This document shows, one piece after another, positions 15,201 through 59,900 of a stretch of DNA of 64,000 bases (position 1 is its first letter; every line of letters starts with the position of its first letter). The stretch lies in the NCBI GenBank assembly GCA_023053575.1, contig JAKZAP010000011.1, positions 6,014,001-6,078,000 of the forward strand, given 5' to 3'. Source of the DNA: Branchinecta lynchi (Eukaryota > Arthropoda > Branchiopoda > Anostraca > Branchinectidae). Below the pieces are notes generated by a model, which saw only the letters and a program-made list of their open reading frames with translations, ran no database searches and was not told where the DNA came from. The position numbers and the translations under genes were made by a program.

Positions 15201-18200
15201 GACCTCATTCATTTTGCTTGGTTGGGAATGAGATATTTTGATGAAACTTTGCGTGAATATTGTTTGGGTCAAGGACAGGTCAAGTTCGTATGTGCCCCTA
15301 TATTTAGGGGTGGGGGAGGGGTTTCAAATTTATGGGCGAAAATAAACAGTTTTTAAAAGCTAATGAGATAGTCGGTTTAGGGGTAAGGAGACATGCTGGA
15401 TTCGAATATGAAAATCATTTTCTCGCTGGACAAGTAGTTCACCCGGAATCTGGCAAAAAAACAGAACATTTTTAAAATGTAAAAGTTGAATATAAACTTG
15501 ATTAGATGTTCGGTTCTAAGGTAGGAGGACATGCTGAATTCGAATATGAAATTTTTTTTTCGCCGGGCCAGTATTTCACCCGGAATACGGAAATTTAGCA
15601 TGAAATTTTAAAACCCAATGATATAGTCGAAGGGTGAGGAGACATGATGTTGCAAATCTCGAACATACCTGAGATAAACAAAAAGTAGCCGCCGCGTTGG
15701 AAAGCTGGAAGGCGGATAGAGCCGACAAGCGCTAACAAGAAAGTCGTTGTTTGACTTGAAAACTAATGCTGTTTTAGAAAAACGATATTTCTGAGCCGTT
15801 TCAGAGTGGAAAAATCATTACTGTAGTAAGAATTGTCCTTTAAGTGATATTATTTTAGGTAGCCGAGTATGCTCGTCGTTTCGGAGTTCCAGTAATCGCC
15901 GATGGTGGCATCGCGTACGTTGGTCATATCATTAAGGCTCTGACGCTAGGAGCCTCGACAGGTAAGCAGTTTTCGCTACGTTATTGATACGTAAACCACT
16001 CAAAGAACCCGTCGTACCTGTAACGCCAATGCAGCCTTCTTCCATATCGCCCGATCAGTTTTGGGGATCCCAAAACGTAAGTGGAGGGATACCTATGACA
16101 TCGCAAAAGTTTTCCATTAATTCCAGCAATGTTTTCAACGGATACATCAGCTAAGATTCTTCATAAGCGATATTTCGGCCCTTCTTGGCAAGGGTCCTCG
16201 TCAGGCTTTCAGTCCTCTTGTTCAGCTTCGGGGAAAGAAACAAACCTGTAATCAAATTCGGGTTTTCTTTCCCCGAAGTTGAACAAGAGGACTGAAAGCC
16301 TGACGAGGACCCTTGCCAAGAAGGGCCGAAATATCGCTTATGAAGAATCTTAGCTGATGTATCCGTTGAAAACATTGCTGGAATAAATGTTTCAAAGTCA
16401 GCTTGGGCTCAAAGAATATTTAAAAGTTGTCCGTCTGTCCGTTCGTTTGTAAGCACGATAACTCTCGAAGGGAATGAGATATTTTCATGAAACTTGGTGT
16501 GACGATGCGTTGGGTCGTCGGACCAGTCGAGTTCGTAGATGGGCTTTGTAGCCCTACATTAAGGGGTGGGGGAGGGGGTTCAAGCTAAGGGGCAAACAAA
16601 ATATTGAGCACGATGGTGTCATCGGACAAGTAGTTCGCCCGGAATCCGGCCAAAACCGGAAAGTTTGTTAAAAGTAAAAGTTTTATTTGAAGTTGATTAG
16701 ATGAGAGGGGTAGGAAGACATGCTGAAGACGTTAGTCAAAACCATTTTCTCGACAGACAAGTAGTTCGCCCGGAATCCGGCCCAAACCGGAAAGTTTGTT
16801 AAAATTAAAAGTATTATTTCGAGTTGATTAGATTTTCAATTTAGGGCAAGAAGACATTCTGAACACTTATGTGAAAACAATTTTCTACCCGGACATGTTG
16901 TTCGCCCGGAATTCGGTCAAAACCGGAAAATTGTTAGAAGTTAAAGTTTTATTTCTAGTTGATTGAATAACCGATTTAGGGGTAAGAAGAGTTGCTGAAT
17001 CCATGTGTGACAATTATATTTTACCCGGGCATATAGTTCGACCGGAATCCGGCTGGAGTCGGAAAATTTGTTATAAGTTAAATTAACTGCCGTAAAAAAG
17101 GCTTTCGCCTCTGTTAATTTCTCGAGACACTGTGTACACTAAATTCAATTTCAGCCAGGTGTCGATCCAAGCCTGCTTTAAACTGATTGATATTTTTGGC
17201 ATTCACGACATTTTCGGGGAGATTATTCCAGTATTCCACTATCCGGTTTTTGAAGCTCCATTTTCCAGTGTCTTTTCGGAATTTCTCACCACTAATTTTC
17301 AAGCTGTGTCCTCTGAGACCATTGTGATTGAAAGTGAGGACATCATCAGGCCTTATGTTATCATAAGGTGCGTTTTTTTGGTTGTTGTTTCGGTGTAGTT
17401 TGACGTAATTTTCTTTCAGTTATGAAAATACAGTATATGTACCGTTTTATTTGTCCATTACACATACTGTACTTTCATAACAAACAAAAGTACGTCAATT
17501 TACAGTGAAACTACAACGAAACTACATCCAAAAAAAACCATCTATAGTAACTATGACAAATCTTAAAAGTTTCAATCAAATCACCTCGGAGAAATCTATA
17601 AGATAAACTGGGTAATCGTAATTTTTTAAGTCGATGTTCATAAGGCAGATGGCGAATGGCTGGCACTGTTTTTGTTGCTCGTCTCTGAACTTCCTCAATG
17701 GCGATGATTTCCTTGTTATAGAAGGGCCTCGTTGTTAGGTGGCCATATTCAGTTAGTGGACGAGCTAGAGCCTTAATTAAAGTAGGAGACAGGGAATTAT
17801 TGGGAATATTGGGGAAAGATGATACCCTGAGTTCGTTTTTCAGCTTTCTTTTTTCGCCGGACAAGTAGTTCTGGAGTTCGGGCGAAACCGGATATTGGCA
17901 GAAGTGGCTGGAAGTTTTCGTCAAAATAGATGTGACTTATAGGGGTAAACACACATGCTGAATCCATATCTGAACTTGGTTTTCTCAGATTATTAGCTAT
18001 TTGGCTTTAATCTTTTTCTGAATTTTAATTGTAAAAATGTTCAATGAGTCTGGCGGTGACTGGATCTGGCTAAGACAAGACCCAGTTGTCTGGATTAGAT
18101 TTTGAATTTTTGGGATCCAATCGAAACCTTTGGTCTTGTTAAACCTGGAGACATGGAATTCATACGGTACATTTGTGAGGCTGCCATTTGTCAGGAATTA

Positions 18201-56900: not shown

Positions 56901-59900
56901 TGAAAGCTGAAATTCATTTCTCAATTTAAATTTTTAGGTTGTGAGATTAATTTATTTTGTCATAAAAATAATGCATTTCCCAAGAATTTCAGTTTTCTAA
57001 CATCGCTATTTAAGACCATTTCTGGCTCGATAGCCACAAACGTGCTAATGCAGAAATGTAGCTGGTTCTTCATTCTACTACCATGGGAAACTCAGGATTT
57101 TCGCGATCTGGCCGGTTCTTTTGGAGTGAATCTACCAAGACCCATTTTTTTAACCTTACCTTGCCAAAATTACCGTAAAAAGGAAAGAAGAGAACCTACA
57201 TACTTGAACATCTCGAGATTTGAAGTCCTAAAGGTAGGTAAGAAGCTCAAAAAATTTCAAGGTTTTTGAATTTTTCAAAAAAAAATCTTTGTCGACCGTC
57301 AACAATGGAATATTTGACTAAAAATCGAATGAATTTTTTCTTTGCTGAAAAAAAATTTGAAGAAGGTCCTGGACCCTTATAGATCATTCTGAGAATTTTT
57401 CGTCAAAATCTGAGAAATCGATTTTTTGGCCTGGCTTTATTTCGATGGAATGACCCTTCAATCTTTTTCTAGATTTTAAAGGCGCAGTTGTCTTGATCAA
57501 ATATCGACCCATCGAAACCTTTGGTCTTGTTTGCCTTTGATCGGAAACACACTTATCTCCAAATAGATCGTAACCAGAAAACCAGACAAAAATATAGCTA
57601 GTATATGAATAAAACGTATAGCAATACAGCATCTGTTAGTGTTTTTGTTTCACTAATTTGTTTTGTGTAATATCTGCGTAACAGCTAGCCGTGTATTTAA
57701 GCAGAAATTGTGTCTCCCGTAATCTAGAGCTTGCAGTCTGTCCCAGCGAATTTATGAGTGGTCGAGATTGCCCGACTCGTTGTCATAAAGGATCGATCCA
57801 GTGTCTCTTAAATAGTTTTGAGAAATGTCGGTTGTTTGAGTTTTGCAGAAAGAAATTTTTACTAATATTCACATAATTCATTCCAGCCGACTCGGTAAGG
57901 GTTTCTATAATAAATATTCCTTCAGCCCAAGCTGACTGCAAATCATATTTGACGGAGCAAAACGGATAGTCAGCTACATTTTATTAGAGCCCTTCTTGGT
58001 AAGGGTCCTCTTCAGGCTTTGAGTGGCTTGAGCCTGAAGAGGACCCTTGCCAAGAAGGGCCGAAATATAGCTCTAATAAAATATAGCTGACTTATCCGTT
58101 TTGCTCCGTCAAATATGGTTTCTATAATATTTTCCGTTAAGTCAGTGCCCTCCTTCAAAGTTTAACTGAAAAGGTCTCCGATAGGACAATCTAATTATCC
58201 ATCACTAATTCCCTTAAAGAAGCTTGAAAACCCGGCGAAAATGCGTTACTTCGTTGCTCCGCTATTCACGAATAATCGATTTTCAAATAGTGGAATTTCC
58301 TCGTCTAATTTGTATGCTCTACGCGCTTGTATCTGTGTTGTATGCTTGGCGAAAACGATTTAAGAAAAGTAAGTGCTCACACAGTGAGCTACCTTTCGCA
58401 AGCTGATCACTGGCCACTCAAACGCCGCGTATGTATTGAGATTCAGTTTTTCTGCGTCATAGTAGAAATTTGCGTTGTGAGGACGACCGAAGATATTCTG
58501 AACGTTGTTCTAGAGCAAATAGTAAAAAATAAAAAAAATTCCTTAACACAATCCAAAAAATGCAGTGTATTCAGTTAAATGATACAAAAATAAGTTGGCT
58601 TTTCAGTTAAACTTTAAAGCAAATATTGAAAGCTATCTGAATACTGTAAAGCTAGGCTCTTGCTTATAAGAAATTATCCACTTCCTTGCCTGTTTTAAGC
58701 GTTATCCCAGGCCCCGGCTTCTAGCTAGATCTCGGCAAAACTATCAAAAAACGATTTTACGTATCAATAGCATCATACACGAACACTCGGTCGGAGCATA
58801 ATGTGCATGGGAACTAGTGAATCGCGTCGTGTCGTTCAAAATGTAACATACGACATTTGGATCTCCGGGTTTAAGAACTAAATTAATGATGTTACGGAAA
58901 TAGGTTGCATTGGCATCTTACACTGAGTAAGGATTAAAGTTAACTGCAGTATTTGCTACTGGGATTAATCTTATCTCTACTTATATAAGATTAATCCGAA
59001 TGAGAGATAAGATTATCTTTTTAGAGACAAGATTAATCCCAGTAGCAAATACTGCAAGATTTGTTTGTACAGTGTAGGTACGACAGGTCCTTTAAGCAAT
59101 TCAGTTCGAGATAACCTAAATATTTGGTATGGCTGATACGTCCATGAGTCTGCCGTATAAAGTCGCTAGCCGTGGGCGGTATAATAGACGAGCTCTCAGG
59201 CGGCTGTACTCAACTTATCGTAAATATTCTACCTTCAGTATTTCTTGATTTTATCTTCGTCTTAAAAAGAAAGACCTTCTTTCTCTCCGAAAAACTTATT
59301 TCGTTATCGTCAGTTTCTTCTTTACCTCACCCATTGGCATTGGAATAGTCATTAGCGAGTTCTTTATTTTTTTTACTCATTTTGAAGAGACCCCTGTCGG
59401 TTCTGCAAAATGTAGGACATGGCTTAGCAAAGGCCTGTTGAACTTTGGCAAGCGTTGTATTCCCCAGATGCAATACATCTAAACAAAGTTATAGTCACAG
59501 AGAAAAATTAGGAAATACGCCTAATAGGGGATTAAGCTGTGGGTATTGTCTCCCAGCTATATAAAGTAGGACGATTCATTTTATCATCAGTTCAGTTCAG
59601 GTATTCAGTAGCTAATCATCAGCTAAGCTTCTAGTCTATATCAGTGTCTGAGGAATAGAGGTGAGTAGAAGGTTATTTGCTTTTCGGTGTCGATGGTTTC
59701 CTTGAAGATTCCGAATAGACGGTATTGTGAATATAATGCTTGTCATTATTGTTCTTTCAAAGGAAACTACCGAATCTAAATAAAAGATTCGTTTGGATAT
59801 GTGGGATACTGTTCTATCATCGAATCGGTCCGTCAAGTTTTGGTCCTCAGCCGTCTTAAAGTTTAACAAGTAGATTGCGCCGGAAGGTCACAGGAAATAT

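Follow-up and report, generated by a model that had tools for sequence, protein, structure and literature searches.

Probable non-autonomous, retrozyme-like elements with a minimal hammerhead motif and Penelope-type insertion scars in Branchinecta lynchi

A stretch of 64,000 nt from the genome of Branchinecta lynchi (GCA_023053575.1, contig JAKZAP010000011.1, positions 6,014,001 to 6,078,000; hereafter referred to as the window) contains seven copies of a short repeat that carries the core of a hammerhead ribozyme (HHR). We conclude that these copies are probably non-autonomous, retrozyme-like units with a minimal type I hammerhead, inserted by machinery of the type used by Penelope-like elements (PLEs). 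The conclusion draws on the motif itself, on paired changes between subfamilies, on direct tandems of units, and on the anatomy of the insertions, which have defined ends, a tail on one end only, target duplications and centres that vary from copy to copy. An initial annotation of the window had proposed a non-autonomous, self-cleaving retroelement family; its assignment to retroelements with a PLE-type minimal hammerhead is upheld by subfamily changes at permitted sites, target duplications and tandem units.

Seven hammerhead-bearing elements in the window

Each of the seven elements carries in one arm, close to the position noted initially, a 44-nt motif composed of a 4-nt stem I strand, CUGANGA, 21 nt, GAAA, approximately UAUH and the second 4-nt strand of stem I. 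As had been reported, stem I reads AAGC/GCUU in the element at 16.3 kb, CAGC/GCUG at 24.0 and 50.4 kb, and GAGC/GCUC at 20.8, 21.9, 47.6 and 58.0 kb. It is paired in all seven, and the difference between copies is confined to the outermost pair. The elements and their hammerheads are listed below by window coordinates and strand.

16118..16421 (+): AAGC-subfamily element with head-to-head arms; tail at the right end (about 16389-16421), left end without tail
16296..16339 (+): intact minimal hammerhead in the right arm of this element; stem I AAGC/GCUU, H17 = C
16165..16208 (-): second intact minimal hammerhead of the 16.3-kb element, on its left arm and antisense to that of the right arm
20698..21010 (-): GAGC-type head-to-head element; tail at left
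20776..20819 (-): broken hammerhead, U16.1 lost (GAAA TAGA); stem I GAGC/GCUC
21520..22050 (-): GAGC-type element, split at about 21590-21880 (by eye) by an unrelated stretch
21900..21943 (-): intact minimal hammerhead; stem I GAGC/GCUC
23860..24131 (+): single arm of CAGC type, with a tail and, at 23860-23965, an upstream body
24006..24049 (+): broken hammerhead, G8 lost (CTGACAA); stem I CAGC/GCUG
47521..47720 (+): chimeric head-to-head element; left arm CAGC-like, right arm GAGC with tail
47606..47649 (+): hammerhead with intact core and one mismatch in stem II; stem I GAGC/GCUC
50355..50527 (-): CAGC single-arm element, tail at left; 5' side reaches TTATTACAGG
50437..50480 (-): intact minimal hammerhead; stem I CAGC/GCUG
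57912..58116 (+): head-to-head GAGC element; only its left end has a tail
58030..58073 (+): intact minimal hammerhead, N7 = A, H17 = A; stem I GAGC/GCUC

Five of the seven elements have an intact core (CUGANGA and GAAA, plus U16.1 and H17), and only the 16.3-kb element has a second one, with stem I AAGC/GCUU in both arms. N7 had been described as the sole variable of the core; this does not hold, given that the core is broken at 24.0 kb by loss of G8 and at 20.8 kb by loss of U16.1. The boundaries proved roughly right, except that the left boundary of the 24.0-kb copy lies at about 23860. This copy and the one at 50.4 kb are single arms and not hairpins. Target duplications flank the elements 20698..21010 (AATATCAAAGGAGTC at 20683-20697 and 21009-21023), 50355..50527 (GTCTTCCACCCT at 50343-50354 and 50528-50539) and 57912..58116 (GGTTTCTATAAT at 57900-57911 and 58117-58128); for the element 16118..16421 the flanking match is only 7 nt, AAAAGTT. 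The unrelated stretch at 21590-21880 in the 21.5-kb element is bounded by CCGATGAAA/TTTCATCGG and is perhaps a nested insertion.

The window was scanned with a descriptor consisting of four paired stem I bases, CUGANGA, a stem II base, GAAA, a short stem III and UH. Six intact cores in five elements were returned, compared with a mean of 0.01 cores (maximum 1) in 100 dinucleotide shuffles. When a 65-nt stretch was folded, stem I and stem II formed as expected; a whole element folded into one long hairpin, which would hide the ribozyme. Stem III is possible only as a loopless AUAU palindrome. As far as sequence and predicted fold can tell, the motif is well supported as a minimal type I hammerhead whose stem III lacks a loop, a form reported from PLEs. 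Minimal type I hammerheads of PLEs are reportedly the subject of Cervera and de la Pena 2014 and of Lunse et al. 2017.

Head-to-head insertions and direct tandems

The search was extended to the genome (575.7 Mb, 216 contigs), and loci fetched from it, designated by L-numbers, comprised 20 of the 40 scored AAGC copies, 20 of the 40 scored GAGC copies and further loci. Across 21 AAGC copies the outer ends do not vary, while the centre between the arms, which holds repeats of the 5' end and short filler, differs in nearly all (the centres of L002 and L005 are alike except for one base). Target duplications of 11-14 nt were found in 18 of the 21. Seventeen of 40 AAGC arms reach ATTACAGG exactly, the rest ending before ATTACAGG or differing there, and these 17 exact ends suggest a defined RNA 5' end. 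A fixed foldback was considered for the arms and dropped, since the centre differs in nearly every copy. The hairpin, initially taken for a conserved structure of the element, is instead the product of head-to-head insertion, apparently made anew each time.

A script that paired outward-reading arms yielded 40 head-to-head pairs. Of these, 39 have a 33-nt tail at a single end (25 left, 14 right) and none has it at both; the remaining pair, L048, was scored as tailless, but a looser pattern does find its tail. A target duplication of at least 8 nt flanks 30 of the 40 pairs, and one of 11-15 nt flanks 27, the misses including loci that were fetched incompletely. All rows were kept in these counts, five of them representing one duplicated insertion and the row of L014 merging two elements; the script overlooked L018 and, in the window, the copy at 57.9 kb. 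The AAGC set had been selected by a query containing one tail, the GAGC query being without tail. In a less biased check, 12 of 13 close pairs among the first 100 listed CAGC cores were head-to-head and one was direct, with one tail in all five pairs that were checkable; among the first 100 listed GAGC cores, six of eight close pairs were head-to-head and two direct. Genome-wide, the tail has 8992 exact copies and its reversed control 0. Two tails lying 58 nt apart in L055 were considered as a double-tail exception and rejected, one being by eye an outer and the other an internal tail, from tandem read-through.

Long inverted repeats flanked by target duplications would also fit foldback elements or miniature inverted-repeat transposable elements (MITEs), i.e. 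DNA transposons in which the hammerhead-like motif would have no RNA role. The asymmetric ends, with one tail only, already contradict this: instead of identical inverted ends and a fixed length of target duplication, we found duplications and centres that vary, copies with a single arm or in direct tandem, and subfamily changes restricted to sites at which a hammerhead permits them. A DNA transposon origin is thus very improbable.

Direct tandems of GAGC units occur at separate loci. Successive tails are 411 nt apart in L046, 399 nt apart in L049 and 409 nt apart in L051; the matches of these three loci to L036 stop before the flanks of L036. Cores in the L036 cluster are spaced by 406 nt (L036), 408 nt (L044) and 389 nt (L047), and a direct array of three GAGC cores has spacings of 405 and 396 nt. 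The elements thus include direct tandem units within the 150-450 nt, with a type I HHR, by which retrozymes are recognized. The tandem sequence does not stop at the insertion end but continues into the following unit, and reverse transcription therefore seems to start inside the unit. Among 45 matches to the body, 23 begin at the first base of the query (read-through) and 14 at position 32, where CATGCC marks a second defined 5' end. GAGC units (L028, L030, L036, L044-L051) have a 5' ATG that begins a putative frame some 44 codons long (MPPTSIHLSWKEEEE...), uninterrupted or broken depending on the copy.

It is possible, if rather doubtful, that only these GAGC units form a separate non-autonomous, retrozyme-like family and that the short AAGC and CAGC copies are solo inverted pseudo-long terminal repeats (pLTRs) of an autonomous coding PLE. 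PLEs are known to leave behind solo and inverted pLTRs that have tails and target duplications (PMC3846280), and arms of which 17 in 40 reach ATTACAGG exactly, with the rest short or different, are expected of one RNA 5' end. However, a longer, non-coding CAGC body, seen in L054 and extending into the 24.0-kb window copy, is related to the GAGC body (63/91 positions, E 3e-5). L055 has by eye the same order from the tail to the downstream sequence as the CAGC body of L054, so that a non-coding unit plan is common to both subfamilies; a coding copy was seen in none of the loci read.

Subfamily changes and evidence against the proposed reading

From 116 instances of the motif, majority sequences were built for AAGC (41), CAGC (8) and GAGC (48), the other 19 being unused. 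The AAGC and GAGC majority sequences are identical at 40 of 44 motif positions, compared with agreement in 59 of 93 aligned columns downstream and 34 of 72 upstream of the motif. The four changed positions are the two sides of the outer stem I pair, N7 and H17. The outer pair is A-U in AAGC, C-G in CAGC and G-C in GAGC, a compensatory change. For the analysis of covariation, 40 of 45 distinct cores were aligned, five being left out for indels or for want of a matching 3' side. In this alignment 93.4% of cells were paired, against a shuffle mean of 89.5%, and none of 500 shuffles reached 93.4%; 19 of 20 double changes fall in the outer stem I pair. Exact copies were counted in the genome with one 44-mer in which the outer pair was varied, the G-C form having its own N7 and H17. 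The C-G form was found 4754 times, the G-C form 1227 times and the A-U form 335 times, giving 6316 exact paired copies of the three types. C-G is likely the ancestral pair.

Several results weigh against our reading. In the same alignment of 40 cores, doubly changed pairs (2) and pair types (10) were no more numerous than in shuffles. As judged from the aligned cores, covariation of stem I is real but based on few events, nearly all of them in one pair. In addition, uncompensated change of stem I, which the initial annotation had named as part of what would refute its reading, does occur to some extent, with 209 exact genome-wide copies of an A-G mismatch (AAGC/GCUG) against 335 copies of the compensated A-U and 4754 of the C-G form. 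Head-to-head pairs are listed among these 209 copies, which indicates that the mismatched form transposed. Given its spread, the outer pair, and with it the ribozyme, would not be strictly required, and the simplest path of this pair would lead from C-G through A-G to A-U. A C-U mismatch was found in 27 exact copies genome-wide, no two of them less than 10 kb apart, and these look like private mutations. Mutants of the HHR of PAc, a PLE of Anolis, insert unimpaired in vitro (PMC11167929).

The spread mismatch and the PAc mutants would both fit a ribozyme fold that is inherited but largely dispensable, insertion requiring the region in which reverse transcription starts and the core being conserved mainly by the youth of the family. 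Little is added by the G8C core (CTGAACA) present at L036, L037, L044, L045 and L047, which was dropped as a candidate for a spreading broken lineage: the five loci have common flanks, and the core thus represents a single insertion, later duplicated. These loci share a composite head-to-head and tandem insertion including its flanks. The motif, on the other hand, has changed far less between AAGC and GAGC than the sequence on either side of it, and its four changes are a paired change in stem I, N7 and H17. We regard a dispensable ribozyme as unlikely.

The Rfam search proposed as a check did not turn out in favor of a hammerhead, no hammerhead model reaching threshold in the window and none being found when a single arm was searched at lax thresholds; this failure would be expected of a stem III without a loop. 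The best Rfam matches were microRNA-type models on palindromes, scoring below gathering, and were set aside. Nor was an autonomous PLE with these ends found in the genome. A whole-genome search for the GIY-YIG family gave two matches, L022 and L023, neither a shown PLE: L022 has two unrelated-looking frames of at least 120 aa, and L023 a short GIY-YIG frame (4855-5319) ending in a CCHC-like knuckle, with no tie to the elements. Among 15623 candidates for the RVT_1 family, 150 were scored, and none of those scored was linked to these ends; judged by their recurrent frame lengths, the 150 are probably long interspersed nuclear elements (LINEs). One RVT_1 candidate about 1.5 kb from an AAGC copy was taken as chance. 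Two loci with widely spaced cores were rejected as full-length PLEs, L053 being a local duplication and L054 a head-to-head copy containing a frame, which we take to be LINE-like. A reading frame combining reverse transcriptase (RT) and GIY-YIG was present in none of the units read.

Frames at 43649-45064 and 17511-17936 of the window are presumably remains of LINE RT. The window further contains a TIM16/PAM16 exon (30410-30949), for which the best matches by E-value are from Artemia (72% identity) and Daphnia (67%), those from insects and other crustaceans following closely, and a tandem array (32482-33490) with 3.3 copies of a 307-nt unit and 93% matches. Another palindromic repeat family, with sub-threshold Rfam matches, lies at 58944-59057, and the flank of L055 at 240-331 resembles it.

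Proposed mechanism and comparison with known systems

In the mechanism that we propose, the motif would belong to a small non-coding unit (about 400 nt in the GAGC subfamily) and lie towards its 3' side, and the hammerhead, with its AUAU-only stem III, would act as a dimer or with the help of a protein. The AAGC and CAGC subfamilies would be a short form starting at a 5' end near GATTACAGG. Reverse transcription, primed at the target DNA, would begin at either of two internal sites, and the tail would be the 33 nt that separate them. Both target strands would often be extended, one per start site, and the two cDNAs would join near the copied RNA 5' ends, giving rise to the head-to-head hairpin and to the target duplication of 11-15 nt. 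Direct tandem insertions would derive from read-through RNA of tandem units. We infer RNA cleavage, circles and a PLE enzyme as parts of this explanation, as well as the priming on both strands, which is deduced from the scars. A plausible though tentative version holds that each head-to-head insertion uses two RNAs, one per strand and with different start sites, which would leave one tail and cDNAs joined near their 5' ends, and that retrozyme-like units share this route. If so, the insertions would be direct anatomical evidence of PLEs mobilising retrozymes. The 8992 exact tails, together with tandems and PLE-type scars, make the idea that PLEs move retrozymes testable in one genome, and the regularity of one tail per insertion along with the varied centres constrains models of PLE integration. 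A combination of retrozyme-like units, PLE-type hammerhead and PLE-type scars was not found in the literature searched, in which subscription journals were sparsely covered.

Rotifer PLEs (Adineta vaga) have inverted pLTRs, one of which may carry a 31-bp tail, and target duplications of 8-10 bp (PMC3846280). The PAc protein cuts and extends both strands, and two internal start sites bound its tail; the PAc hammerhead needed protein, and later steps of PLE integration are still to be validated according to this 2024 in vitro study (PMC11167929). Minimal PLE hammerheads without helix III are described in PMC7761336 and PMC6155905. In animals, retrozymes take the form of small tandem units with a type I hammerhead, and PLEs have been proposed to move them (PMC7229834), though named only as a strong candidate in what is accessible of that paper and of PMC7761336.

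The motif described here resembles the minimal type I hammerheads of PLEs in its CUGANGA/GAAA core, short stem I, loopless stem III and expected action as a dimer, but differs in a bulged A in stem II, in units without an enzyme reading frame and in a cleavage that is only predicted. Similar to the insertions of Adineta vaga PLEs and PAc, the elements show inverted arms, an optional tail of 30-40 nt on one arm, target duplications, partial tandems and, as it appears, a start of RT inside the unit; unlike those PLEs, they have no RT/GIY-YIG frame, their duplications are mostly 11-15 nt rather than 8-10, and their copy number is very high. With the metazoan non-LTR retrozymes (PMC7229834) they share the direct repetition of small non-coding units, about 400 nt long and bearing a type I hammerhead, and they differ from them in the minimal form of the hammerhead, in PLE-type ends, in head-to-head insertions and in a circular RNA that is only predicted.

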